A DNA stretch of 64,000 bases from Bacteroidales bacterium (lineage in GTDB: Bacteria; Bacteroidota; Bacteroidia; Bacteroidales; UBA932). Both the position numbers and the translations under genes were made by a program. The stretch covers positions 1 to 64,000 of the forward strand of contig SUYX01000008.1 in assembly GCA_015060225.1 (NCBI GenBank), given 5' to 3'. Positions 1,015 to 32,100 of this stretch are shown one piece after another. Every line of letters starts with the position of its first letter. Positions within the stretch are counted from its first letter, which is position 1. Under the pieces are notes generated by a model. That model had not been told where the DNA came from, did not search any database, and saw nothing but the letters and a program-made list of their open reading frames with translations.

Positions 1015-1043
1015 GGGGTGGCTAGTGCCACCCCATTTTTTTT
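1015..1043. terminator. gdhA intrinsic terminator, overlapping the 3' end of the recombinase gene
   Basis: ggggtggc-tagt-gccacccc followed by a + strand T-run. Confidence 0.85.
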
Positions 1044-1621
1044 ATGTAATTTGAAGCCGTTGAACGGCTTACCTTCATTCTTCTTGCAATATTGGATATG
1101 GTATATCCTTCATTAAGCATTTCTTTAATTTTATTTTCTTTCCCTGTCAATTTCAATTTAAGGGATCTGCTTCCTTTAGGTCTTCCAAGGATTATTCCTT
1201 CCTTCTTTTTCCGGGCAAGGGCTTCCTTGGTCCTTTGGGAAATAAGGTTCCTCTCAATCTCGGCACTCAATCCAAATGCAAATGCAAGAACTTTTGAGTT
1301 AATGTCATTTCCAAGCCTGTAGTTGTCTTTAATTGTCCATACTTGAATATCTTTTTCCATGCAGACATTCAGTATAGACATAATCATCATCAGATTTCTT
1401 CCCAGACGTGATATTTCCGAGCAGATCAATATATCCTCTTTGGATAATTTTCTTAGAAGCAAGCCGAGTTTCCTTTTCTCAACTGCCATGTTTCCGGAAA
1501 TTGTCTCTTCAATCCATTTGTCGATTTTAATATTGAGAACTTTGCAGAAATTGTTTATTTCGAATCTCTGGTTTTCCACGGTCTGCTTGTCCGTGCTTAC
1601 TCTAATGTAACCATAAATCAT
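1022..1621 (-). CDS. Serine site-specific recombinase (resolvase/invertase; resembles the Bacteroides Mpi-type promoter invertase)
   Basis: IYGYIRVSTDKQTVENQRFEI N-terminus with catalytic-Ser motif, SRLGRN, AEIERNLISQRTKEALARKK, C-terminal HTH ISNIARRMKVSRSTASNYIKK. Confidence 0.93.
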   Translation of the reverse strand: MIYGYIRVSTDKQTVENQRFEINNFCKVLNIKIDKWIEETISGNMAVEKRKLGLLLRKLSKEDILICSEISRLGRNLMMIMSILNVCMEKDIQVWTIKDNYRLGNDINSKVLAFAFGLSAEIERNLISQRTKEALARKKKEGIILGRPKGSRSLKLKLTGKENKIKEMLNEGYTISNIARRMKVSRSTASNYIKKMGWH

Positions 1622-1751: not shown

Positions 1752-1791
1752 CAATAAAAAAGAAGGTGACAAATAAGCAGCTGCCACCTTC
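1752..1791 (-). terminator. Intrinsic terminator downstream of the left SusCD/peptidase operon
   Basis: Minus strand gaaggtg...caccttcttttttatt. Confidence 0.65.
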
Positions 1792-1813: not shown

Positions 1814-3700
1814 TCAATCTATAACAAACACAGGAGGAGCAAGTGGAACAAACTTCTCACCAGAAGATTTTGTCTGACCGGTATTGTCAGTCTTCTGTAC
1901 ATCATTTGCAATAAACTTCTCCAAAGTAAACTCCTCACCTGCTATTGACATAATCCTTTTTACAATCAGATAACGGCTGATAGAATCAAAATAAAGTCTG
2001 TTGTCATTCATGCAACTTATGCTCTCTGAACGCCACACACCTCTCTGGTATAACCATCCTCCTTCATACATTGATACATGTCCATATCCCTGCTGGCCCA
2101 ACAGCATACTCCATGGAGTCTCTTCCATGCTACTTGTCAATGACATGTTCAATCCTGCACCATATCCCTGCCATGCCGCATAAGAAGCCAGGGTCTCCGC
2201 CGACGGAGCAGAATCACTTGTAACATACTCGTCTACAAGTCTTCCAAATCCGTGACCACCCATCTCGTGAGTCAAGGTAGAGATAAGCTGCTGGTCACTC
2301 CTCTGCAAAGGAACCATTGAGATACTTTCACCATTTGAGGTCATAAGACAGGTACCGGCATATATAGGCTCATTTATAATCACACATACAGCACATTTGT
2401 ACAAATCCGAGGATGTAATCCCCGGTATCTTCTGTACCCAGTTGTTCACTTTATCATAATTGCACGAAATTCCCGTACTTCCTCCACCCTCACATACTGC
2501 AGAGAATGCTGTACTCCTCTGTTTCTTGTCAGCAGTAATGGTAGTACCTGATTCCTGAGAATAGGCGGCAATCTTGTAAACGGTAAAGTACTCCCTGTAT
2601 GTTTTGTACGGCTCTGCCGAAAAGAGACCTTCAATAGCCCAATCAACTTTTGTGTCAAAATGTCCACCCCTCTCATAGTCACCTTTTACAAAACCGTCAC
2701 CTGTGAATATCAATTTTACAGGATTTGGTTTTGTACTCTCCTGATATACAACCCACTCTCCATCAGCATAAAGGCTTGTAGAGGCTGTTGTAAATGAAAT
2801 CACATCAGATTCAGAAGTCTCACCAACCCCATCATCAGCTTTCAATTTTGCATAATATTTGGTGTTTATATCCAAATCTTCAGGCAAAGAATATGATCTC
2901 ACATGCCATATAGGACCGTACTCATCAAACTGGGCTCCATCTTTTGAAAGATAAAGATGATAAGTCAAAGTGTCACCATCCGCATCCTTGCAGTTCCATG
3001 CAAACTTAACATTGGAATATACATTCTCAGCACCATTTACAGGTGATGTAAACTCAGGTTTGGCAGGTGCTGTATTAGGTCCGGGTTCCTGCTCAATATA
3101 AAGAGTCTTGAAAATTCCAAAATAAGAGAACTTAAGTGGAATCTTCACATATTTATTATTTGGATTTGCTGTAACGACAGCAGAAATTGTAGCATTGCCC
3201 GTACCTGAAGTCTGCGATAAAGTAACTCTTGAGGTCTCAACAGATTCCTCAATCTTCCATGAGGTGTTTGAAGTAATGTTGATTGATACGGTCTCACCCT
3301 CTGCCTTTACCTTTACAGGATCAGGCGAGAATGTCAATTGCACAGGTACCTGCTTTACAATAAATGAAGCAGCAAGAGAGGCATCAGCATCAGCCTTTAA
3401 AGTAACTGTAGCACTCCTTTCGGCTCCGGAAATGTTGGCATCGGCCTTTACTTGCATCTGGAGACTCGAACTTCCTTTTTTCGGAGAAATCTGCAACCAG
3501 CTTCCATTAGTTACAGAAGCTGTCCATCCAATATTGGCAGTTACATCTACTGTCACTGCAGCCCCATCGGAACCCAATTCAACAGAAGACTGTGACACAA
3601 TGAGTTCCTTTGCAGGATCCTTTTCACAACCTGTCAGTGAGACAATCAGCAACAACAATATTGCATAAAGCCCACTCAATCTAAGAACACTTGTTTTCAT
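1814..3700 (-). CDS. Secreted lipoprotein: BACON-like repeats, Fn3-like region, C-terminal IgA-peptidase-M64-like metallopeptidase
   Basis: Lipobox LTGC; two BACON-like repeats (SVELGSDGAAVTVDVTANIGWTAS...); metal-binding-like TLTHEMGGHGFGRLVDEY. Confidence 0.85.
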   Translation of the reverse strand: MKTSVLRLSGLYAILLLLIVSLTGCEKDPAKELIVSQSSVELGSDGAAVTVDVTANIGWTASVTNGSWLQISPKKGSSSLQMQVKADANISGAERSATVTLKADADASLAASFIVKQVPVQLTFSPDPVKVKAEGETVSINITSNTSWKIEESVETSRVTLSQTSGTGNATISAVVTANPNNKYVKIPLKFSYFGIFKTLYIEQEPGPNTAPAKPEFTSPVNGAENVYSNVKFAWNCKDADGDTLTYHLYLSKDGAQFDEYGPIWHVRSYSLPEDLDINTKYYAKLKADDGVGETSESDVISFTTASTSLYADGEWVVYQESTKPNPVKLIFTGDGFVKGDYERGGHFDTKVDWAIEGLFSAEPYKTYREYFTVYKIAAYSQESGTTITADKKQRSTAFSAVCEGGGSTGISCNYDKVNNWVQKIPGITSSDLYKCAVCVIINEPIYAGTCLMTSNGESISMVPLQRSDQQLISTLTHEMGGHGFGRLVDEYVTSDSAPSAETLASYAAWQGYGAGLNMSLTSSMEETPWSMLLGQQGYGHVSMYEGGWLYQRGVWRSESISCMNDNRLYFDSISRYLIVKRIMSIAGEEFTLEKFIANDVQKTDNTGQTKSSGEKFVPLAPPVFVID

Positions 3701-3704
3701 AATA

Positions 3705-4373
3705 CTATCCGTTTATATAATCAACAATTTTCAAAAGGCTGGCGGGAGATTTCCATGAAATCTTATTCTGCTTGAGAAATGCTTTAAATCCCGATTTTTT
3801 ATCGGAAGGCAAAAGTAACTCAAGATTTTTTCTGTTTGCAGGATAAACATTCCCTTTTGTTACAATATAATACTCCTTCTCTACAGGGAGCAATACACCA
3901 AGATCCTTCTCATTCTTAAGATTCATATGATTTGTACTTGCCGATGGGCCTGAACCTTCTATAGAAGAAAGTCTGTTGACTGCCACAGAATTTGCAGAAG
4001 ATCCATATGCCGCCCCCCCCTGTGAATTCAATGCTGCCATATCAACAACCGTCACCTCACCTACAAAACCTTTATCATTAGCCGCAACTGCCTTCATCAT
4101 AAGCCCCTGTTTGGAGTAAAAAGAATCATTACCTATACTTACCAAAAGAATATCGGCAGATTTTGCCTCCATTATATCCTCTCCTTCCAAGTAATGGAAT
4201 TTGCTGTTCAGAATATGGATATTCACCTTGCACTCCCTCTTGCTTCCATCTTTGAAGAACACGGTAGCATCCTGAAAATCATTATAAAGATATGGCCATG
4301 TAGATGTCGGTTCCTGCGCTGCAAGCACATCACAAACAAACATGATAATAAATAAACTTAAAACCTTTCTCAT
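3705..4373 (-). CDS. Secreted protein of unknown function
   Basis: 222 aa ORF with signal peptide MRKVLSLFIIMFVCDVLAAQ, 4 nt from the downstream gene in the same operon. Confidence 0.7.
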   Translation of the reverse strand: MRKVLSLFIIMFVCDVLAAQEPTSTWPYLYNDFQDATVFFKDGSKRECKVNIHILNSKFHYLEGEDIMEAKSADILLVSIGNDSFYSKQGLMMKAVAANDKGFVGEVTVVDMAALNSQGGAAYGSSANSVAVNRLSSIEGSGPSASTNHMNLKNEKDLGVLLPVEKEYYIVTKGNVYPANRKNLELLLPSDKKSGFKAFLKQNKISWKSPASLLKIVDYING

Positions 4374-4468: not shown

Positions 4469-5332
4469 TTAGTCTTTAACCATAGTCCAGTCTGGCAACA
4501 GAACATTAATGCTGCCGGCACCGGCAATGTAAGCCCAAACTCCATAATCCACAGCAAGGTTCTTACCGCCATCCTTAATGGTAATAGTCCAGTTACCTTC
4601 ACCTGCACTATATCCGTTAAGCGCTGCATCAACACCCATAAACTCAACACTGGTTGTACCGCCATACTTGTACTCACTCATCTGTCCGAAAGGAACAGTG
4701 ATGGTAGTCACATCTTTATCAACGTTACCATATACAAGCATGTCATCACCAGCCCAAGATGCATCACCAAGGAAGTTGTCAATCCAAACCTTATAAGGGT
4801 CTGAAGGATCCTTCTTGAATGTAACTGTAAATTTGCTTGGACCGTTGAAGTAGCTTACAGCAGTAGCTGTATAAGTACCCAAAATTGATGTTAGAGGATG
4901 GTCAAGGTCATTAATTGTTATTGAACAAACATTCTCTGAACCAACTTTTACATCACCAGGATTTCCAATCTTCAACTGGAAAGAGATGTCACCTGAAAAC
5001 ACCCCAGGATTATCAATAATTTTTACAACAACATTCTGAGTAGGATTTCCCTCTGAGAAAGATAGAGAAGTTGTCTCAAGAACATAGTTGACACCAGCTT
5101 TAGCTGTGCCGTCAACAGCCTCTACAGAAACAGTAGCAGAAAGTCCGCTTAGAGAAGTCAAAGTAACAGGAACATTAATTGTACCTGCATTCTCAGCTGC
5201 AGATGCAGAGCCGCTGCCAAAAGCAACGAAAGCATCACTGTCATTGAACTTAGGCATCTCATTGATTTCACATGAAGCGAATAGAAATGCTCCTAAGGTC
5301 AAAGCGCTCAAATATTTGAATATCTTTTTCAT
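4469..5332 (-). CDS. Calx-beta-like domain lipoprotein of a SusCD locus
   Basis: Lipobox ASCE; Calx-beta-like pattern (GTINVPVTLTSLSGLSATVSVEAVDGTAKAGVNYV). Confidence 0.75.
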   Translation of the reverse strand: MKKIFKYLSALTLGAFLFASCEINEMPKFNDSDAFVAFGSGSASAAENAGTINVPVTLTSLSGLSATVSVEAVDGTAKAGVNYVLETTSLSFSEGNPTQNVVVKIIDNPGVFSGDISFQLKIGNPGDVKVGSENVCSITINDLDHPLTSILGTYTATAVSYFNGPSKFTVTFKKDPSDPYKVWIDNFLGDASWAGDDMLVYGNVDKDVTTITVPFGQMSEYKYGGTTSVEFMGVDAALNGYSAGEGNWTITIKDGGKNLAVDYGVWAYIAGAGSINVLLPDWTMVKD

Positions 5333-5347
5333 ATTATATGAATCTTT

Positions 5348-6760
5348 TTAGTTATAACCCTCATTCTGTACCAAATTCTCATTAACGTCCATCTCACGTT
5401 TAGGAATTGGAAGAGCAAACATGTAGCTGTGGGCAGCAACATTCTGGTTTGTAGGATCACCTACATAGTCAACTCTGGTAATACCTTTACCCCAACGTGA
5501 AAGGTCGAACCACAAGTGTCCCTCCCATGCAAGCTCTTTTCTTCTCTCATTGTAAACATCCTCTTTACCTGCAGATGTGTATAGGGTTGCATTTCTTGCC
5601 TCGGCAATCTTGTTAAGATCTGCCACTGCATCACCTGATGCACCGTTTACGATAGCCTCTGCCCTGTTCAAATACATCTCAGAAAGACGAAGAACTACAG
5701 TATTGTTTGCATCTGGAGTACCTACACCTTTTCCTGCATACTTGATTGTCCAGTACAAGTGGTCATATCCGTCAGCTTTCTGCCACTGGTTTCTTACATC
5801 ATCATCCTCATAAAGGTTTACAAGATCTGTACTTACAGCACAGTCAGCATAACCTTCAGGACTTGACATCCACATAGGAGACTCCCAATATGCATCATAG
5901 GCATTGGTCTGTGCACCGAACACCTCAAAAATAACCTCTGAAGTACCTACATTAGCCTTCCAAGCACTTGCATACTCAGCTGCAGTCCACAACTCGAATG
6001 CTGGGTTGTTGATAACCTTAGTTGCATACTCAGCAGCCTTGTTCCAATTCTCCATATATAGGTATACCCTTGAAAGCAAAGCCTGTACAGCAGGTTTGGT
6101 AACAGCTGCCTTATAATCTGAGATACCGTCTCTCTTATAGTCATCAGACATGATTGACTCAGCCTCAGTAAGGTCAGTAACAATCTGGTCATATACCTCT
6201 GCTACTGTATTTCTTGCAGGTTTGCCAGCAGGATCTGTTGACAATACTACAGGTACACCGTTGCCGTTTGGCTGGTAACCGTAAGGCTGTGCATATAATC
6301 TTACCATATCAAAGTGAGACAAAGCTCTAAGGAACAAAGCCTCAGCTTTAAGGTTGTTAATATCCTGAGCAGATACTTCACCACCCTCTTTACCCTCAAG
6401 ATTGGCAAGAACATTATTGGCTGCTGAAATCACAAAATAGCCGTAACCCCACAAACCTGAAGTTGCACTTGGGTTGTAGCTGATATTATAAGAACCGGAA
6501 TAACGGCCGGAATCAAAATCGCCTTCGGTAGGTTTTTTACCGTTACCTGAACGCATCTCTGCCTCAAAAACAAAGCCAGGACCATACCAAGTGCTGCTTA
6601 CCAATGGGCTATAAGCACCAGCGATAGAAGAGTTCAATCCATCAAAAGTAGAGAGAGTAATCTCTGTACTCTGAGTTAACTTAGGCTCCTTAACCAGAAA
6701 GTCTGAACAACTGGTGGCAAAAAGAGCAACTGTAATTGATAATATTAGTAATTTTTTCAT
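5348..6760 (-). CDS. SusD/RagB family outer membrane lipoprotein
   Basis: Lipobox TSCSD, EALFLRALSHFDMVRLYAQPYGY, YNERRKELAWEGHLWFDLSRWGKG; directly follows susC. Confidence 0.93.
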   Translation of the reverse strand: MKKLLILSITVALFATSCSDFLVKEPKLTQSTEITLSTFDGLNSSIAGAYSPLVSSTWYGPGFVFEAEMRSGNGKKPTEGDFDSGRYSGSYNISYNPSATSGLWGYGYFVISAANNVLANLEGKEGGEVSAQDINNLKAEALFLRALSHFDMVRLYAQPYGYQPNGNGVPVVLSTDPAGKPARNTVAEVYDQIVTDLTEAESIMSDDYKRDGISDYKAAVTKPAVQALLSRVYLYMENWNKAAEYATKVINNPAFELWTAAEYASAWKANVGTSEVIFEVFGAQTNAYDAYWESPMWMSSPEGYADCAVSTDLVNLYEDDDVRNQWQKADGYDHLYWTIKYAGKGVGTPDANNTVVLRLSEMYLNRAEAIVNGASGDAVADLNKIAEARNATLYTSAGKEDVYNERRKELAWEGHLWFDLSRWGKGITRVDYVGDPTNQNVAAHSYMFALPIPKREMDVNENLVQNEGYN

Positions 6761-6779: not shown

Positions 6780-9752
6780 TTAGAATGACAACTCAATACC
6801 ACCAATGAATGATTTTGTCATTGGGTAGATACCTGCACCAATACCAGTTACACCACGCTCCGGATCCCAGAAGTCAACATCGTGGAAAGTAAACAGGTTA
6901 AGTGCACTTGCATATATCTTAACATTGCTTACACCTACTTTCTTGGTAAGTTTGCTTGGCAAAGTGTATGACAATGTAATATCCTTGATTCTTACGTAGT
7001 CACCATCCTGCAACCATCTTGTACTTGCAAAAGCATATGAGTTGCTTGCTGTACCTGCAACAGGTTTAGGGTTAACACCTGTATCACCAGGTTTCTTCCA
7101 GTAGTTACCGGCAATCTTGTACTGGTTCATTGACATCTGGTTACCGTCAGAGTTACAATATCTGCTCTCAATGATCATAACCTTGTTACCGCCCTTGAAC
7201 TCAAGGAATGCGCTCAAGCTAAGACCTTTCCAAGAAACTGAAGTATTGAAACCTCCAGTATATTTAGGCTCTGGTGAACCTGCATAGATATATCTTGCCT
7301 TATTGTAGTTGTTTGTAAGTGAACCGTCCTCAGCTACCCAAAGAGCCTCACCGTTTACTGGGTTCACACCATAGTACTCTTTAAGATAGAAAGTGTACAT
7401 GCCCTCACCAACAACATGTTTCAAACGGCTGTCACCAGAATATGTCATCTCAGTTACATCACCAAGGTTCTTGATCTCTGTCTGGTTGAATGAAAGGTTC
7501 AAACCTGCATCCCATTTCCAGTCCTTGTTGTTGATGATGTCATAATTCAACTGAATCTCAACACCGCGGTTAACCATCTCACCAATGTTCATGAAGTTAG
7601 ATGAGAAACCTGTAGTCTGGGGAACTGATTTGCTCAACAACATATCTGTAGTTGTTCTGTTGTACCAGTCGATGCTACCGTTCAATTTGCCGAAGAAACC
7701 GAAGTCAACACCGGCATTTACAGTTGCATTAAGCTCCCATGAAAGGTCATCGTTTGATGGAGAGCTTGGCAACATACCAACTGAACCGTTATACTGTGAA
7801 GAAGCATATACACCATAAGCCTGGTAAGCAGAAATGTTGTCATTACCGTTAACACCATAGCTTGCACGAACTTTCAATAGATCCAACCACTCAACATCTT
7901 TAAGCCAGTTCTCTGAATGAAGGTTCCATGATGCACCTACTGAGTAGAATACACCCCACTGCTTGTTCTTGCCGAACAAAGATGAACCGTCATAACGTAC
8001 AGAAGCCTGTAGGAAGTATTTTGAATCAAAGCTATAATCTGCAATACCAAAGAATGAAAGCAAAGTACGCTCATTGGTGCTGTAGCTTGCATAGTCTTTG
8101 TCTGAAGGTGCAGTAGAAGGATAAGGAATATTAGGATCTACCTGTGGAGAATAAGCATAGAATGAGCTGTAATCTCTCTGCATAGCCTCCTGACCTGCCA
8201 ATACTCTTACATTATGTTTGTCATTGAAAACATTGCTGTAAGTAATGGTATTTGAAGTGGTCATCTGAACATACTGCAATCTTGAGGTCTGAAGAGTTGC
8301 CTCACCCTCGCTGGTATAAGGATGCCAGTATCTTCTACCCTCACCAAATGTGGTCTCAATTGCATTGGTAGTCTTAACTGTAACATTCTTTACAGGTTTC
8401 CACTCCAAGTAGAAGTTACCGTTAATTCTGAACTGTTTCTCCCACTGCTCATCATATTTTGCAGTTGCCCTTGGGTTGGTATTTGAGTTCTCTGAGATAT
8501 TCACATTATGGTCACAGTCCTCATTATATGGTTTTGACCAAGGAAGAATGATTGAACCTGCCCACATAGGGTTTGAATAATACAAGCTTTGCATTGGAAC
8601 ATCATTTGCAACAGTGCGTGCGCCATTGAAACGGACACCCATCTCAAGTTTGTTACCCAATTTATGGTCTGCATTTACACGGAAGGTGATTTTTTCATAG
8701 TCAACACCATAGAACACACCTTCGTTCTTGTGGTAAGTAAGTGAGCTGTAGAATTTGCTCCTTGCAGTACCTGCAGAAGCGTTAATCTCATACTCATTAA
8801 GTTTACCGGCACGTGAGAAATGATCAATCCAATCGGTTGTACCACCATCCAACAAAGACATAGGACGATAGAATCTTCCATTAGGATCATCAGGGTTGCC
8901 GCCAGCATTTACAATCGCATCTCTCTGATAAGCCAAAAGCTCCTCACCTGTCATCAAGCCAAAATCATTGTCATTTGCAAGGTTTGAAATACCCATCTTG
9001 GCTCTTGCAGAGAATTTTGCCTTACCCTCTTTACCGCTCTTGGTAGTAACAAGAACAACACCGTTTGCAGCACGGGAACCGTAAACTGAGGCAGCAGCAG
9101 CATCTTTCAATACTGTAATGCTCTCAATATCGTTAGGGTTGATAGTTGCAATGGCATTACCGGTATTGGTAAAGTAAGTCTGATCACCGTTCATTACAGG
9201 AATACCGTCAACAACCCATAGAGGCTCGTTACCTGCATTGATAGAAGAAGTACCACGTACACGAATCTGAGAAGAAGCACCTGGCTGACCTGTAGCTGCA
9301 GTAATCTGAACACCAGCCATCTTACCTGCCAACATCTTGTCAACTGATGATACAGGGGCCTCAGAGATTGCATTACCCGAAACAGTAGTTACCGAACCTG
9401 TTTTAGCCTCTCTCTTTACAACACCGTAAGCAACAACCATAACATCATCAAGCACAACAGACTCTTCCTGCATAACTATGTTAATGACTGATTTGTTGTT
9501 AATCGGCATAACAACATCTTGCATACCAACAAGGGAGTAAACCAATGTGCCGTTAGCAGGAGCACTGATTTCATATTTACCGTCAGCATCTGTTGATGTA
9601 CCTGAGGTAGAACCTTGAAGTAGTACGTAAACACCAATAATGGGATCCCCATTCTGGTCTGTAACAGTACCCTTAACTGTTATGTTTTGTGCCCATGCAA
9701 AACTAACAGCCAATAATGAGAGTACTGTCAAGAAAAACTTTACTTTTCTCAT
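6780..9752 (-). CDS. SusC/RagA family TonB-dependent outer membrane receptor
   Basis: Carboxypeptidase-regulatory-like N-terminus, plug domain (IRVRGTSSINAGNEPLWVVDGIP), DAAAASVYGSRAANGVVLVTTKSG, C-terminal beta-barrel ending in F. Confidence 0.96.
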   Translation of the reverse strand: MRKVKFFLTVLSLLAVSFAWAQNITVKGTVTDQNGDPIIGVYVLLQGSTSGTSTDADGKYEISAPANGTLVYSLVGMQDVVMPINNKSVINIVMQEESVVLDDVMVVAYGVVKREAKTGSVTTVSGNAISEAPVSSVDKMLAGKMAGVQITAATGQPGASSQIRVRGTSSINAGNEPLWVVDGIPVMNGDQTYFTNTGNAIATINPNDIESITVLKDAAAASVYGSRAANGVVLVTTKSGKEGKAKFSARAKMGISNLANDNDFGLMTGEELLAYQRDAIVNAGGNPDDPNGRFYRPMSLLDGGTTDWIDHFSRAGKLNEYEINASAGTARSKFYSSLTYHKNEGVFYGVDYEKITFRVNADHKLGNKLEMGVRFNGARTVANDVPMQSLYYSNPMWAGSIILPWSKPYNEDCDHNVNISENSNTNPRATAKYDEQWEKQFRINGNFYLEWKPVKNVTVKTTNAIETTFGEGRRYWHPYTSEGEATLQTSRLQYVQMTTSNTITYSNVFNDKHNVRVLAGQEAMQRDYSSFYAYSPQVDPNIPYPSTAPSDKDYASYSTNERTLLSFFGIADYSFDSKYFLQASVRYDGSSLFGKNKQWGVFYSVGASWNLHSENWLKDVEWLDLLKVRASYGVNGNDNISAYQAYGVYASSQYNGSVGMLPSSPSNDDLSWELNATVNAGVDFGFFGKLNGSIDWYNRTTTDMLLSKSVPQTTGFSSNFMNIGEMVNRGVEIQLNYDIINNKDWKWDAGLNLSFNQTEIKNLGDVTEMTYSGDSRLKHVVGEGMYTFYLKEYYGVNPVNGEALWVAEDGSLTNNYNKARYIYAGSPEPKYTGGFNTSVSWKGLSLSAFLEFKGGNKVMIIESRYCNSDGNQMSMNQYKIAGNYWKKPGDTGVNPKPVAGTASNSYAFASTRWLQDGDYVRIKDITLSYTLPSKLTKKVGVSNVKIYASALNLFTFHDVDFWDPERGVTGIGAGIYPMTKSFIGGIELSF

Positions 9753-9777
9753 AAAGGTTTTTTTTAAGGTTAATATT
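9698..9777 (-). repeat. Left arm of perfect 80-bp inverted repeat (susC 5'UTR + start + signal-peptide codons)
   Basis: Reverse complement aatattaaccttaaaaaaaacctttatgagaaaagtaaagtttttcttgacagtactctcattattggctgttagttttg is identical to 10449-10528. Confidence 0.97.
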
Positions 9778-10448
9778 ATTATTATTTATTGTAGGTTTTA
9801 ATTGTGCGTTGCCGTATCCTGTATCGGAACAAAGGATTACGGAGAGGGGAAATTGTAAGGTCCATATTGAAAACATTTCCCTAAACAGTTGATTGTGTGA
9901 AGTATCTTCACTAAAAAAATGTAATGGAACTGAAATGATTCCAGTTATGCGGAAGCCCATTTTCACCATATTGGAAGTGGACAAGAAAATATCGGGAATA
10001 GAAAGGTGATATATGGTTTAAGAATATCGGGAAGCACTTTCATTATCCCGATAAAATTACCGATTGTTCGCAGAGAAACGGATTTTGCATCAATTTGGAA
10101 GAACTTTCTACGAAAAAGTTGGATTTATTTCAATCTTTCTGTGGAATGGAGTGAAAGGTTACAATCTGTTACTTTTATGGATATTCATTGGGTATTCAAA
10201 AAAAATCAAAAAAAGTTTTATCCAGTAAAAAGTTTTAATTTATACAATATTCGTAGAGAATAGTTAACATTCTTAATGCTTTTAATAATTTTTATTAAAA
10301 AAAGTTTTTATTTACAAAAATTACCTTATCTTTACAAAAATAACCGTTTCTCCCCAGATTTTTGGTTTTTAAAACTATATATTATATTTGCGGCTTGGAG
10401 CAAAAGTATTTGTTCCTATGTAGAGAAAACCTACAATTATTTTAATCA
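9778..10448. other. Candidate invertible promoter segment (671 bp) between divergent susC genes
   Basis: Intergenic region bounded by the perfect 80-bp inverted repeat; contains a Bacteroidota-type promoter facing right. Confidence 0.6.
10361..10390 (+). promoter_or_regulatory. Bacteroidota-type sigma-ABfr-like promoter for the rightward susC
   Basis: TTTG (10361-10364), 18 nt spacer, TATATTTG (10383-10390), matching TTTG / TAnnTTTG. Confidence 0.6.
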
Positions 10449-10528
10449 AATATTAACCTTAAAAAAAACCTTTATGAGAAAAGTAAAGTTTTTCTTGACA
10501 GTACTCTCATTATTGGCTGTTAGTTTTG
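10449..10528 (+). repeat. Right arm of perfect 80-bp inverted repeat
   Basis: Identical to the reverse complement of 9698-9777. Confidence 0.97.
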
Positions 10529-13440
10529 TATATGCACAGAACATAACAGTTAGAGGTACCGTTACAGACGCGGCCGATAATTCTCCACTTATCGGTGCCG
10601 GTGTTCAAGTAAAAGGTAGCGCTCAAGGTGTAATTACCGACGTGGACGGTAACTTTGAGATTTCATGTAGCCCAAATGCTACCCTTATCATAACTTATGT
10701 CAGTTATGAGGATATGGAGGTTGCGGTAAACGGTAAAGCCGTTATCAACGTACAGCTAAAGGCAAGCACAGAGATGCTTGAGGATGTGTTGGTAGTAGGT
10801 TATGGTTCCGCAAAGAAAATCAGCTCGGTTGTTGGAGCTGCTACAACAGTTAAGAAACAGGTGTTCCAGAACAGACCTGTGGCAAGTGCCGGTGATGCTC
10901 TTCAGGGCCAGGTAGCAGGTTTGCAGGTGTTCACATCATCAGGTGAGCCAAGTGCAGCTGTATCAATGCGTTTGCGTGGTGTAAACTCAATCAATGCGTC
11001 TAACACCCCTCTATTCATTCTTGACGGTTCTCCAGTAAGTTCATCAGTATTTACTACATTGAACTCAAACGATATTGAGAACATCACAGTATTGAAGGAC
11101 GCTTCATCAACTGCAATCTACGGTTCGCGTGCAGCAAACGGTGTTGTTTACATTACTACCAAGAAGGGTGCTTCTGACAAACCTACTGTAAAAGTTAGTG
11201 CACAGTATGGTATCTCTTCAGTAGCAAGCAACCCTTACGAGATGTGTAACACTGAGCAGTACTTCCAGTTGCGTGAGATGATTGACCCTGCTTTGGTTAA
11301 CAACGCACAGTTCCAGGCTTTGAAGAAATTCCGTATTGACAACAATTTTGATTTCGACTGGAGAGGTTGGATCCTTAACGAGAATGCTCCTACAGTAAGC
11401 GGTGACCTTTCAATTGCAGGAAGAACCAACAGACTGGACTACTATGTATCATTCAGTGCTTTTGACCAGCAGGGTGTTGAGCCAGAGTCTGCACTTACAA
11501 GATATGGTGTAAGATCAAACATCAACTCTAAAGTTACAGATTGGTTGAAAGTTGGTTTGAACTTGGGTCTAACTTATCAGGAGACTGAGACTGCAGGTTA
11601 CTCAGGAACAGGTAACTCATGGTACAACCCTATGAACATTGCTGACTGGTCACTTCCATACGCAGTTCCTTATGAGATCCTTACTGATGCTGCAGGTAAC
11701 TTCACCGGTTTTGGTGAGGAGCAGGACTACATCACTGATATGGGTCTTTACAACTACTACTACCTGATCGCTCAGCAGCCTACTTTCAAAAACTATATCA
11801 GATTGAACGGTAACACTTACCAGGAGATCACTCCTATCAAAGGTTTGGTTATCAGAGCTGCTCAGGCAATTGAGGCTTACGATTACAGATATACAGGTAA
11901 AGTTCTTTCAGATCCTTACAAATTGTTCACAACTTCAGCTACTGAGAACTTCTACAGAGATTATACTCTAACTTCTACAAACACTGCAGAGTACAAATTC
12001 ACTATAGCTGAGAAACACAATTTTGTGTTGTTGGCAGGTCACGAGTCAATCGTTAACCAGTATGAGGGCTTCCAGGCAAAATCATCTGGTATGACTGACA
12101 ACCGTGTGAACAATGTTAACCAGGGTACCAAATATGAGCAGCCTTCATACTCATTCTCTGAGAAAGCATACAACTCATACTTCGGCCGTATCAACTACGA
12201 TTACGCTGACAAATACCACTTTGAGGCTACTTTCCGTAGAGACGGTTCTTCATTGTTCGGTGCTAACAAGAGATATGCAAACTTCTACTCATTCGGTGCA
12301 AACTGGAATGCGAAGAAAGAGAGCTTCCTTGAGGATGTAGAGTGGTTGGACAAATTGAACGTTAGAGTATCTTACGGTACAACCGGTAACTCAGGTATCA
12401 GCGAGTACTTGGCTAACGGTTTGCTTGGCAACTCAGCACAGTACAACGGTGAGGAGACTTGGGGCCTTTCACAGGTTGAGAACCCAGACCTTACTTGGGA
12501 GACTGTAGAGTCAACCAACATTGGTATCAGCACAAGATTGTTTGACTTGGTTGATGTAGAGTTGGAGCTTTACAACAAGGATACCAAAGACATGTTGATG
12601 GAGATCCCTTATTCTTATGCTACAGGTTTCTCTGGCGGTTGGGGTAATGTTGGTAACATGAACAACAAAGGTATTGATGTTACTTTGAACTTCAACGTTC
12701 TTAACACTAAAGACATGACCTTTAATGTAAGTGGTACTTTCAACTACAACAAGAACGAGATTACCAAATTGTTTGGTGGTAGAGATGAGTTCGTAGTTGC
12801 AAATACAGGTATCAAATATCAGGTAGGCAAATCTCTTGGTGATTTCTATTATACAAGATGGGCTGGCGTTGATCCTGCAACCGGTAAACAGCTTTGGTTG
12901 GATAAAGAGGGTAATGTAACTGGCGTTTACAGCGAGGATGATGCTGTATTTACAGGCAAACAGCGTTACGCTCCTTATGCAGCAGGTCTTCAGTTGGATT
13001 TCGCTTGGAAAGGCCTTTCAGTAAGCGCAGCATTCTCAGGCGTATTTGGCAAATGGACTATCTCAAATACCAGATACTTCATTGAGAACTCAAACTTCGC
13101 AGCTGACCAGAACCAGGCAGCAGTTATGCTTGAGATGTGGCAGAAACCTGGTGACATTACCAGAATCCCTGCTGCTAACGAGCCATTGCAGTTCGATACT
13201 CACCTTTTGGAGAACGCTTCATTCGTTCGTTTGAAAAACTTGCAGATTGCTTACAGCCTTCCTAAGAAATGGTGTGAGAAATCAGGATTCCTTTCAGGTG
13301 CCAGAGTATATGCAATCGGTAGAAACTTGTTGACATTTACTGAGTACACTGGTTATGATCCAGAGGTTGACTCTAACCTTCAGTTGGGTAACTACCCTAA
13401 CTCTAAGCAGTTCTCATTTGGTGTTGAGCTAACCTTCTAA
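10474..13440 (+). CDS. SusC/RagA family TonB-dependent outer membrane receptor (start placed at MRKVKFFLTVLSLLAVSFVYAQ, not the upstream ORF start)
   Basis: Signal peptide; plug (MRLRGVNSINASNTPLFILDGSPV), DASSTAIYGSRAANGVVYITTKKG; C-terminal barrel. Confidence 0.95.
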   Translation: MRKVKFFLTVLSLLAVSFVYAQNITVRGTVTDAADNSPLIGAGVQVKGSAQGVITDVDGNFEISCSPNATLIITYVSYEDMEVAVNGKAVINVQLKASTEMLEDVLVVGYGSAKKISSVVGAATTVKKQVFQNRPVASAGDALQGQVAGLQVFTSSGEPSAAVSMRLRGVNSINASNTPLFILDGSPVSSSVFTTLNSNDIENITVLKDASSTAIYGSRAANGVVYITTKKGASDKPTVKVSAQYGISSVASNPYEMCNTEQYFQLREMIDPALVNNAQFQALKKFRIDNNFDFDWRGWILNENAPTVSGDLSIAGRTNRLDYYVSFSAFDQQGVEPESALTRYGVRSNINSKVTDWLKVGLNLGLTYQETETAGYSGTGNSWYNPMNIADWSLPYAVPYEILTDAAGNFTGFGEEQDYITDMGLYNYYYLIAQQPTFKNYIRLNGNTYQEITPIKGLVIRAAQAIEAYDYRYTGKVLSDPYKLFTTSATENFYRDYTLTSTNTAEYKFTIAEKHNFVLLAGHESIVNQYEGFQAKSSGMTDNRVNNVNQGTKYEQPSYSFSEKAYNSYFGRINYDYADKYHFEATFRRDGSSLFGANKRYANFYSFGANWNAKKESFLEDVEWLDKLNVRVSYGTTGNSGISEYLANGLLGNSAQYNGEETWGLSQVENPDLTWETVESTNIGISTRLFDLVDVELELYNKDTKDMLMEIPYSYATGFSGGWGNVGNMNNKGIDVTLNFNVLNTKDMTFNVSGTFNYNKNEITKLFGGRDEFVVANTGIKYQVGKSLGDFYYTRWAGVDPATGKQLWLDKEGNVTGVYSEDDAVFTGKQRYAPYAAGLQLDFAWKGLSVSAAFSGVFGKWTISNTRYFIENSNFAADQNQAAVMLEMWQKPGDITRIPAANEPLQFDTHLLENASFVRLKNLQIAYSLPKKWCEKSGFLSGARVYAIGRNLLTFTEYTGYDPEVDSNLQLGNYPNSKQFSFGVELTF

Positions 13441-13454
13441 ATAATTGACAGAGT

Positions 13455-14996
13455 ATGAAAAAATTAATATTCACATTACTATCAGTAATTCTTCTTGCTA
13501 CCTCTTGTAGCTTGGAGAAAATGCCTTCTGGAAAGGTCAGCACCAATGACATCCAGAGTGTAGATGATGTTCAGAAGTTGAGAAACTATTTGTACATCAG
13601 ACTTAGAGGTATGTATTCAGGCTCTTACATCTATTCTGGAGAGCTTATGGGTGACCTATTCCACGCTAGCTTGGGTTACGGTAACCGTGGTGGTGTATAC
13701 CACAAATGGCAGTGGACTTCTACCGACGCCCTTGCTGAGGGTCTTTGGGGACACGTATACTATACTACAGCTTCTGTAAACTACCTAGTACAGGAGATGG
13801 ACAAACTTGCTGAGAAAGTTGAGCTTACAGATGCTGAGAAAGCTCAGTTGGAGGTTTATTACGGTGAGGCTTACTTCATGAAAGCTGTTGCTATGTTTGA
13901 GGCAGTTAAAATGTTCTCTGAGCCTTATACCAAAAACCAGAATGCTCAAGGTATGATGTTGGTTGACACTTATGCTCCTACTTCTGATGCTTCTACATAC
14001 CCTGCCAGAAGCTCTGTAGCCGAGACATATGAGTTCATTGACAAATATCTTGGTATGGCTGCTACAAAATTGGCTAAAGTTCCTGGTAAAGTAGCTTCAA
14101 TGTTCCTTACATCTGATGCAGTTTCTGCAATGCAGGCTAGAGTTGCCCTTTTCAAAGGTGACTACGCAACTGCTATCTCAAAATCAACTGCATTGGTTGA
14201 CGGTGGCAATTATCCTCTAATCTCAGTTGAGGGTGTTGCTTCACAGGATGAGCTAAACGCTGTTATTGAGGAGTTCAACGCTCTTTGGACAGATGATAGC
14301 GGTAAAGAGTGTATGATGCAGCTTTATGCAGACTATGCAGCATCTTCTCTACCTTCTTCATTGGATTATTCATACATCAGCTTGAATGCTGCAGGTGTTT
14401 ATGCTCCTGACTACATTCCTGAGCAGTGGGTTGTTGACCTATATCCTTCAAACGATATCAGAACACTATGGTATGGCCAGCACAAGCTTACTTACGGTAG
14501 CGTAACAGGCAATGCTGTTCTTTTGAAGAAATTCCCTGGCAACAGAAAACTTCAGGACGCTTCAAAAACCACTTCAGACTATATCAACAAGATTAAATTG
14601 TTCCGTATCGCTGAGCAGTACCTAATTGCTGCTGAGGCCTACGCTTACTCAGGAGACGAGGAGAAAGCTAACGAGTATTTGAACAAATTGTTGGCAGCTC
14701 GTGAGATCTCTCATGAGGAGCTTACTCTATTTGGTGATGATTTGAAAGATGCTATCAAAGAGGAGCGCGTTAAAGAGCTTATCGGAGAGGGCTTCCGTTT
14801 CTATGACCTTAAGAGATATGGTCAGGGCTTCGCTAGAGGTGCAGCTCAGAACCAAGCACTTATTACAAATGCAGGTAGCACCCAGACTGAGTTGTTCAGC
14901 GCAAGTGCAAGCGACTTCAGATGGTTGTGGCCAGTACCTCAGGCTGAGATTGATTCAAACCCTCAGATCGCTGAGCAGCAGAATCCTGGTTATTAA
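13455..14996 (+). CDS. SusD/RagB family outer membrane lipoprotein
   Basis: Lipobox TSCS, ALFKGDYATAISKSTALVDGG, KEERVKELIGEGFRFYDLKRYGQG; follows susC. Confidence 0.92.
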   Translation: MKKLIFTLLSVILLATSCSLEKMPSGKVSTNDIQSVDDVQKLRNYLYIRLRGMYSGSYIYSGELMGDLFHASLGYGNRGGVYHKWQWTSTDALAEGLWGHVYYTTASVNYLVQEMDKLAEKVELTDAEKAQLEVYYGEAYFMKAVAMFEAVKMFSEPYTKNQNAQGMMLVDTYAPTSDASTYPARSSVAETYEFIDKYLGMAATKLAKVPGKVASMFLTSDAVSAMQARVALFKGDYATAISKSTALVDGGNYPLISVEGVASQDELNAVIEEFNALWTDDSGKECMMQLYADYAASSLPSSLDYSYISLNAAGVYAPDYIPEQWVVDLYPSNDIRTLWYGQHKLTYGSVTGNAVLLKKFPGNRKLQDASKTTSDYINKIKLFRIAEQYLIAAEAYAYSGDEEKANEYLNKLLAAREISHEELTLFGDDLKDAIKEERVKELIGEGFRFYDLKRYGQGFARGAAQNQALITNAGSTQTELFSASASDFRWLWPVPQAEIDSNPQIAEQQNPGY

Positions 14997-15014: not shown

Positions 15015-15881
15015 ATGAAAAAATTATCAATGAAACTATTGTCTGTAGTAGGAGCATTGGCAGTTGTCTTTGCATTGACTTCTTGTAACCAGGATTTGAT
15101 GGAGACAACCTATACTCCAGACAATAATAACGTTACTTTTGAGATGTCCTCTGCTTCTTACAGCTTGGAGGGACAGCCAATTGTAGTTAAGATCAATAGA
15201 GGTGTGGCAAATGAAGCTATATCTATTCCTCTTACACTTACAGATGCTCATGGCGTTTACACTATGAACAAGAGATCTGCAGATTTCGCTGCAGGTGAGT
15301 ACACTACTGAGGTTCAGTTGTCTTACAATGTTGATGATTTGAAACCAGTGGTAAACTATGCTTTCACTTTGTCTTTCAACGAGGCTGATATGGCTATTTC
15401 TGGTGCAAACAAACTTACCGGTAACTGCCAGATGCCTTTGGTTTACAAAGATTGGGGTAAAATGTCTGCTTTGTCAGGTTCTTTCTTCGGTTATGTTCCT
15501 GCAGAGAAGAGAACTTGGGATATCCAGTTGGCTGACTATACCAATAACTATTTCAAAGTTAAAGGTTTCTTTGGTGGCGAGACTGATCTTGAGTTCAATA
15601 TTCAGAACGGTTCAGGTATTATCACTGCTCCAGGTGAAAGCTACTACAGCGCTACTGGTGCTGCTCCATTAGCAAAATTTGTTTCTGGTGCTGTTCACCC
15701 TACTTACGGAGTAGTTACTGTTTGGGTTGATTATGATCCTGCATACACTGTATTCGGTAATCTTAACGAGGATGGTACTCTTCAGTTGGGTTCTATCATG
15801 CAGTTTGATACTTTCATTACTGTATCTGCCGGATACTTTGGCTGGTATACTCATCAGGCTATCGTTTCAGAAGTTAAATAA
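15015..15881 (+). CDS. SusCD-associated lipoprotein with DUF1735-like N-terminal domain
   Basis: Lipobox TSCN; operon position after susD; beta-sandwich-like pattern. Confidence 0.65.
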   Translation: MKKLSMKLLSVVGALAVVFALTSCNQDLMETTYTPDNNNVTFEMSSASYSLEGQPIVVKINRGVANEAISIPLTLTDAHGVYTMNKRSADFAAGEYTTEVQLSYNVDDLKPVVNYAFTLSFNEADMAISGANKLTGNCQMPLVYKDWGKMSALSGSFFGYVPAEKRTWDIQLADYTNNYFKVKGFFGGETDLEFNIQNGSGIITAPGESYYSATGAAPLAKFVSGAVHPTYGVVTVWVDYDPAYTVFGNLNEDGTLQLGSIMQFDTFITVSAGYFGWYTHQAIVSEVK

Positions 15882-29107: not shown

Positions 29108-32100
29108 ATGTCGCAAAACACAAATAATCAGCGGATTACATTCGCGACTTCTAAATCCCTCCTTGACTATCCGGATTTTCTAGAAGTGCAATTAAAGTCT
29201 TTCAAGGACTTTTTTCAGCTTGACACAACAGCAGAAAACCGTAGAAACGAAGGTTTGTTTAAGGTTTTTCAGGAGATATTTCCTATTACGGACACCCGTA
29301 ACAATTTTGTTCTGGAGTTTATAGACTACTTCATTGATCCACCTCGCTATTCAATGGATGAGTGTCTTGACAGAGGTCTTACCTACAGTGTTCCTCTCAA
29401 GGCAAAACTTAAATTGTATTGTACAGATCCTGAGCATGAGGATTTTGATACAGTTATCCAGGATGTTTATTTGGGAACCATCCCATATATGACACCAAGG
29501 GGTACTTTCATCATTAACGGCTCTGAGAGAATTGTTGTTTCTCAGCTTCACCGTTCTCCAGGTGTTTTCTTTGGTCAGAGTATGCATGCCAACGGCACCA
29601 AATTGTACTCTGCCAGAATTATTCCTTTTAAAGGTTCATGGATCGAGTTCGCTACTGACATCAATAATGTCATGTATGCTTATATCGACCGTAAAAAGAA
29701 ATTGCCGGTAACAACTCTTTTGAGAGCTATCGGTTTTGAAAGTGACAAGGATATTCTTGATATCTTTGGTTTGGCTACTGAGGTTAAAGTAAACAAGACT
29801 AACCTCAAGAAATGCATTGGCAGCAAATTGGCTGCAAGGGTCCTCAAGACATGGAACGAGGACTTTGTAGATGAGGATACTGGAGAGGTAGTTTCTTTGG
29901 ACCGTAAAGAGATTATCATTGACAGGGAGACAATTCTTGAGGAGCATCATATTGATGAGATCCTTGAGTCTGATGTGAATACTATCCTTATCCACAATGA
30001 GGATGCAAATGCAAGCGATTTTGCAATTATCCACAATACACTGCAGAAAGATCAATGTAACTCTGAAATAGAGGCTATTTTCTATACATACAGACAGTTG
30101 AGGAATTCAGAACCACCTGATGAGGCAACTGCAAGAGACGTTATCGACAAGCTCTTCTTCTCCGACAAGAGATATGATTTGGGAGAGGTTGGAAGGTACC
30201 GCCTGAACAGAAAACTTAATTTGTCAACCCCTAATGATGTAAGGGTTCTTACAAAGGCAGATATCATTGAGATTATCCGCTACCTGATTTCACTGATCAA
30301 CTCAAAGGCTACAGTTGATGATATTGACCATTTGAGCAACAGAAGAATCAGGACAGTAGGTGAGCAGTTGGCAAACCAGTTCAGTGTTGGTCTTGCCCGT
30401 ATGGCAAGAACAATCAGAGAGAGAATGAATGTAAGGGACAATGAGGTGTTTACTCCGATTGACCTTATCAATGCAAAGACTTTGTCTTCAGTTATCAATT
30501 CATTCTTTGGCACCAGCCAGTTGTCACAGTTCATGGACCAGACCAATCCATTGGCAGAGATGACCCATAAGAGAAGGTTGTCGGCTTTGGGTCCTGGTGG
30601 TCTTTCAAGGGACAGGGCAGGTTTTGAGGTACGTGACGTACACTATACACACTATGGAAGGTTGTGTCCGATTGAGACTCCTGAGGGTCCGAATATCGGT
30701 CTTATCTCTTCTTTGTGTGTTTATGCAAGAATCAATGAACTTGGTTTCATTGAGACACCATACAGAAAAGTTGATAACGGTGTAGTTGACCTCTCTCCAA
30801 AAGGTTGTGTTTACATGAGTGCTGAAGAGGAGGAAGATAAGGTTGTTGCACAGGCAAATGCCCATATTGACGAGAACGGAAACTTTACCGATGACAGAAT
30901 CAAATGCCGTTATGAGGCTGATTATCCTGTCGTAAGCAAGGATAAGGTTGACCTGATGGACGTTGCCCCTAACCAGATTGCTTCAATAGCTGCATCCTTG
31001 ATTCCATTCCTGGAGCATGATGATGCTAACCGTGCATTGATGGGATCCAACATGATGCGCCAGGCAGTGCCTGTAGTAAGACCAGAGGCTCCTATCGTAG
31101 GTACTGGACTTGAGGCTGCAGTGGTAAGGGATTCAAGGACACAGGTATCTGCGGAGACTACCGGTGAGGTTGTTTATGTAGATGCAAATGAGATACATAT
31201 CAGATATGACAGGACAGAGGAGGAGAGATTTGTAAGTTTTGACCCTGAGATTACAGTCTACAAGCTTCCTTTGTACAGAAAAACCAACCAGAGCACTTCA
31301 ATCCATCTTAAACCTATCGTGAAGAAAGGTGACAAGATTGTGAAAGGACAGATTCTCACTGAGGGTTATGCTACCCAGAAAGGTGAGCTTGCTCTTGGAA
31401 GGAACCTTAAGGTTGCATATATGCCTTGGAAGGGTTACAACTTTGAGGATGCGATTGTGCTTTCTGAGAGAATTCTTAGGGAGGATATCTTTACTTCAAT
31501 CCATGTTGATGAGTACATCATGGAGGTGAGGGATACCAAACGCGGTATGGAGGAGCTTACTTCAGATATCCCTAACGTAAGTGAGGAGGCAACAAAGGAT
31601 CTTGATGAGAACGGTATCATAAGAATAGGTGCAAATGTTGAGCCTGGTGATATCCTTATCGGTAAGATTACCCCTAAGGGTGAGAGCGATCCTTCTCCAG
31701 AGGAGAAACTGTTGCGTGCCATCTTTGGTGACAAGGCCGGTGATGTGAAGGATGCTTCTCTGAAGGCTTCACCTTCTTTGTCGGGAACAATTATTGACAA
31801 GAGGTTGTTTGCGAGGGTTGGTAAAGAGGCAAACAACAAGAAGGCCAAACAGAATACGAAGACACAGGTGCAGCAGGCGGAGGATACTTTCAACCGCAAG
31901 GCAGGCGTTCTAAGGGACAAATTCCTTGACAAGCTTGAGGTACTTGTAAAAGGTAAGGTTTCAGACGGTGTTAATGATCTTTATGGTGTAGAGATTCTTG
32001 CTAAGGGCGAGGGCTTTACAAGAGAGATTCTTGATACAATTGATTATGAGAATATCAATCCTACAAAATGGACTGACGACAAACATGCCAACGGATTGAT

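Follow-up and report, generated by a model that had tools for sequence, protein, structure and literature searches.

A candidate two-sided promoter toggle between divergent susCD operons, with an Mpi-family invertase gene alongside, in a gut-type Bacteroidales genome

SusCD transporters are main nutrient importers of gut Bacteroidota and are also surface antigens. Among described promoter inversions, the Campylobacter fetus sap S-layer system holds one promoter between opposed surface-protein genes, whose 5' ends are identical and take in the secretion signal region, the inverting element being larger than the one considered below and RecA-dependent. In the Salmonella Hin/fljBA system a serine invertase, encoded inside the promoter-bearing segment that it flips, acts on a promoter that serves one side. 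In Bacteroides fragilis, as three sources describe, DNA inversion picks which SusC/SusD is expressed through the tyrosine recombinase Tsr0667 (Nakayama-Imaohji 2009), which acts globally over 12 regions, and the inversion at three susCD clusters is of the shufflon type (PMC4747536, PMC11852207, PMC12632263). The Bacteroides Mpi recombinase acts in trans on 13 regions via short repeats, for which the published B. fragilis motif is ARACGTTCGT (PMC8375218), and turns capsule loci ON or OFF (PMC4747536, PMC8375218). Phase-variable susCD promoters are already known, as are Tsr0667 susCD inversion and Mpi promoter inversion in Bacteroides (PMC4747536, PMC8375218, PMC12632263). Furthermore, TonB/SusD genes are enriched beside invertons (PMC11892184), the regions with the greatest orientation differences between IBD patients and controls include inversions near susC/susD (PMC10939037), and the C. 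fetus sap inversion is itself named in PMC11852207.

The window analyzed here, a 64-kb stretch of the draft MAG (64 contigs, 86% complete; genome G000) of an uncultured gut-type Bacteroidales bacterium, holds one consensus promoter and its 5' leader in a 671-bp core between 80-bp inverted repeats, with two susCD operons pointing outward (Table 1). It is proposed, with a probability of about 70%, that this locus works as a two-state toggle of the promoter, is operated by an Mpi-family invertase encoded nearby and includes an alternative susCD cassette that can be replaced. Recombination between the arms would flip the core. As assembled, the locus would transcribe the right susCD operon; once flipped, the promoter would serve the left susCD operon with an unchanged 5' UTR and signal-peptide start, the candidate catalyst being the Mpi-family serine invertase encoded at the left-operon end. 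The layout of the locus, the uniqueness of the promoter by consensus, the family of the invertase, the conservation and the replacement of the cassette are observed, whereas the inversion of the core, the part played in it by the invertase and its ON/OFF effect are what we infer from sequence.

As described for the Tsr0667 loci, expression of SusC/SusD outer-membrane proteins would be selected by inversion; in contrast to those loci, this one has a single core, one local Mpi-family serine invertase and arms that lack the Tsr0667 motif, and its 80-mer occurs only twice in the genome whereas multiple shufflon-type repeats are described there. Like the Mpi capsule loci it would have a promoter that inverts, and its candidate recombinase falls in the same NCBIfam family, but the arms are long and lack ARACGTTCGT, the genome contains a single such site, and operons lie on both sides. 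The resemblance to C. fetus sap consists of a promoter between oppositely oriented surface-protein genes with identical 5' ends; the proteins, however, are unrelated, and the sap element is larger and recombines in a RecA-dependent manner. Hin/fljBA offers a further parallel, i.e., a serine invertase (here a candidate enzyme) and a promoter-bearing segment, although here the invertase gene lies 8 kb outside the segment and operons flank both sides. What would set the present locus apart is a two-sided toggle with arms that span both gene starts, an Mpi-family enzyme encoded locally and content that can be replaced. If the toggle is strictly either/or rather than ON/OFF, the cell would choose between two nutrient-uptake or surface states. 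Its native sites, single promoter and single enzyme make the system directly testable in E. coli.

Table 1. Features of the candidate toggle locus, with positions in the 64-kb window.
Feature	Position	Strand	Remarks
199-aa serine DNA invertase of the Mpi family, candidate switch recombinase	1022..1621	-	NF009949, PF00239 + PF02796
Terminator-like hairpin, left operon/invertase gap	1762..1791	-	11-bp stem then T-run
BACON-domain protein with IgA-peptidase-type (M64) domain, left operon	1814..3700	-	PF09471, PF19190, PF13004
222-aa protein, family unknown, left operon	3705..4373	-	
Calx-beta surface protein, left operon	4469..5332	-	PF03160
Left SusD	5348..6760	-	PF14322, PF07980
Left SusC/RagA receptor, 990 aa	6780..9752	-	TIGR04056 834 bits; predicted OFF
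Left inverted-repeat arm	9698..9777	-	25 nt leader + ATG + 18 codons of left susC; 80/80 to right arm
Putative invertible core, 671 bp	9778..10448	.	aligns to G203 core, same orientation, 68% over 974-column alignment
Bacteroidota-type promoter TTTG-N18-TATATTTG	10361..10390	+	faces right operon; sole full consensus match in core, either strand
Right inverted-repeat arm	10449..10528	+	same 80 nt, start of right susC; identical in G203 right-operon ortholog
Right SusC/RagA TonB-dependent receptor, 988 aa	10474..13440	+	TIGR04056 779 bits; predicted ON
Right SusD	13455..14996	+	PF07980, PF14322
288-aa protein, probable lipoprotein, right operon	15015..15881	+	without Pfam match

The original prediction held that the two arms are perfect reverse complements, each covering leader, ATG and first codons of one of two divergent susC genes, and every part of this description was reproduced, both genes being TIGR04056 SusC/RagA members. 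Similarity of the arms runs on outward into the coding sequence (94% across 121 nt), and past the arms the DNA identity of the left and right susC genes soon drops to about 45-55%, their products sharing about 34-36% of residues. The repeat is the sole exact repeat of at least 25 bp in the window: all 56 inverted 25-mer matches derive from it and no direct repeats of at least 25 bp were found, which excludes a chance origin. A genome-wide search for the 80-mer, suggested as a check for a larger shufflon, returned just two copies in the assembled genome, so the repeat does not belong to one there. An artefact of MAG assembly, conceivable in a 64-contig draft that is 86% complete, is highly improbable, since each arm is continuous with a distinct gene and the same arms, core and promoter are present in the independently assembled sister genome G203 (SUYL01000031.1, MAG Bacteroidales bacterium SIG149).

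Inverted repeats flanking a promoter, the arrangement by which invertons are recognized, were found at 9698-10528. A consensus search of both strands yielded no left-facing promoter in the core, and the locus as assembled is predicted to have its right operon ON and its left operon OFF. A counterpart of the right-facing promoter occupies the same position in G203, G204 and G210 (four species including that of the window); no genome with the left-facing orientation was found, both complete examples (G000 and G203) facing right. Positions 9000-11200 contain no Rfam elements, and no viral-contig or plasmid copies were found. Upon simulated inversion, the promoter came to lie 83 nt before the left ATG, the same distance as it now has from the right ATG, and both SusC proteins were unchanged wherever the crossover fell within the arms, because every such crossover yields an identical product; the expectation that inversion would keep both reading frames intact was thus borne out. 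An invertible promoter switch is the best-supported reading, as originally proposed, and it is strengthened by a single one-way promoter and an adjacent Mpi-family invertase kept in the sister species, neither of which had been noted; the accompanying idea of a promoter swap between the operons does not stand, as one promoter would be common to both.

The identity of the arms at synonymous sites, previously read as a sign of recombination, is real but occurs without the repeat as well, which weakens the argument drawn from it: conservation of the segment from -25 to +55 reaches 98-100% in the right-operon orthologs of G204, in which the invertase is fragmented and the left cassette absent, and of G210, in which the invertase was not found, and no working toggle was found in either. 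The right SusC genes of G000 and G203 are separated by a dS of 0.33, yet the 80-nt arm is identical between them. Because G204 and G210 show hardly any variation in the arm, it may be held constant by the function of leader and signal peptide, and the identity of the arms may come partly from this function and not from recombination alone. The same near-invariance in single-copy orthologs would agree with there being no programmed inversion: the arms would be alike because a conserved leader and signal-peptide start was once duplicated or gene-converted, and the left operon would have its own weak or unrecognized promoter; a chimera-like SusC in G210 suggests that conversion between such genes happens. 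We consider this quite unlikely, given that conversion accounts neither for repeats inverted around one promoter, nor for the invertase next to them, nor for the recurrence of this architecture in G203 with another left susCD, and that a consensus promoter facing left is absent.

The candidate recombinase gene, overlooked in the original prediction, follows the last gene of the left operon. Its product passes the NCBIfam Mpi-family model NF009949 (336 bits, cutoff 272), consists of a resolvase catalytic domain (PF00239) and a C-terminal HTH (PF02796), and possesses the catalytic residues R7, S9, R72 and R75, which are invariant in six homologs; its dN/dS is 0.03-0.06. It is the only PF00239 gene, and the only serine recombinase, found in the 86% complete assembly; no other recombinase was found on the contig of the window. 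This protein is a likely catalyst of the core inversion. The terminator-like hairpin separates its gene from the left operon, so that the two are probably not simply co-transcribed, and a T-tailed hairpin was also seen by eye at the corresponding place in G203. Feedback via such co-transcription was considered, and is weakened by both hairpins.

The components were compared across the genus. G203 keeps the right operon (SusC 96%), the core, the promoter orientation and the invertase (93%), with arms of 57 bp that differ by one mismatch, while its left susCD is a different, non-orthologous pair whose SusC is about 34-37% identical to either SusC of the window. In G204 the right SusC (95%) and the promoter are kept, the left susCD is missing, and two invertase fragments lie just behind the promoter; in G208 the left pair is gone and an invertase fragment adjoins the homolog of the right SusC. 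Degeneration of the invertase where the left cassette has been lost is expected if both are useful only together. G210 retains the right SusC (85%) and the promoter. The G210 SusC (L134, G210:C34, 7577-10540) looks chimeric, its first ~100 codons being like the left SusC of the window and the remainder right-like. Further susCD genes that end in an invertase, 78-82% identical to that of the window, occur in G167 and G173, the G173 copy containing an in-frame stop.

These comparisons also bear on whether the promoter inverts by another route, i.e., via RecA homologous recombination or a distant tyrosine recombinase, the Mpi-family gene acting elsewhere or being a passenger. An identity of 80 bp suffices for RecA, at least 10 tyrosine recombinase genes are present elsewhere in the genome, and no invertase-like site was recognized in the arms. 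The motif ARACGTTCGT is absent from them even when one mismatch is allowed; as this motif belongs to B. fragilis Mpi, its absence counts against the same specificity and not against family membership. The repeat motif of Tsr0667, which Nakayama-Imaohji reportedly gave in 2009 as AGTYYYN4GDACT, was in this form likewise not found in the arms, its one match in the window (at 29196) being at chance level, and no dyad in the arm exceeded those of shuffled sequence. A site shared with ~24-bp repeats beside related invertases (about YTGT-NN-AGRAA, by eye) was dropped after a profile test, in which a profile from 15 related-invertase sites ranked the arms 71st-106th or worse among about 127,950 positions. 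Inversion by RecA or a tyrosine recombinase is nevertheless unlikely, for the invertase keeps its place at the end of the left cassette across species while the accompanying susCD changes, is degenerate where that cassette is lost, and has no rival among serine recombinases in the assembly or among recombinases of any kind on the contig.

Homologs of the right SusC (E<=1e-150) are present in 26 of the 39 genomes of the genus, whereas orthologs of the left SusC are few and ~56% identical, which marks the right operon as a probable genus-wide resident and the left susCD plus invertase as an accessory cassette, the susCD part of which is replaceable. The left SusD is under purifying selection (dN/dS of 0.12 against G167); maintenance by selection of an operon that no recognized promoter faces is an indirect sign that it is sometimes expressed. 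On this basis a modular toggle may tentatively be envisaged, in which an accessory cassette of alternative susCD and Mpi-family invertase sits beside a genus-core susCD operon and has the leader and signal-peptide start in common with it, which would turn the resident promoter into a switch between the two; the cassette's susCD would be exchanged between species and the invertase and arms would stay. If the invertase does keep its place while the partner operon changes, the locus would illustrate how switches of this kind are assembled and take on new content.

Several other arrangements were observed around related genes. In locus L044 (G167:C52) the contig reads as a near-perfect palindrome of a susCD-invertase unit. 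Its two ends each share an exact 141-bp overlap with another contig, and this probably reflects branching of the assembly graph around such genes. Other long inverted repeats at susC starts occur in the same genus in L137 (G141:C3), L139 (G208:C301) and L135 (G173:C29), those of L137 and L139 containing a AAACGTTCGTTT-like palindrome that is close to the published Mpi motif. In L058 (G087:C17), a divergent susC pair has 59- and 57-bp inverted repeats (4475-4604 and 10863-10990) about 6.4 kb apart, and a related invertase gene lies inside the repeats, directly adjoining one arm.

Invertase relatives also stand beside methyltransferase-like genes, an identity read from translated repeats rather than from a family search, with ~24-bp inverted repeats GGAnGATTTTTCTAAACAnAAAAT (L047, L151, L152, L165, L170, L196, L200 and L210). 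The repeats at these genes are 645-826 bp apart, and the invertases, found in many genomes, are 67-73% identical to that of the window. These loci are likely to represent a family of modification genes that invert, with members in several bacterial groups. The association of relatives with such genes and repeats is consistent with an invertase lineage for the protein encoded at 1022-1621, a lineage that may have been recruited from DNA-modification switches.
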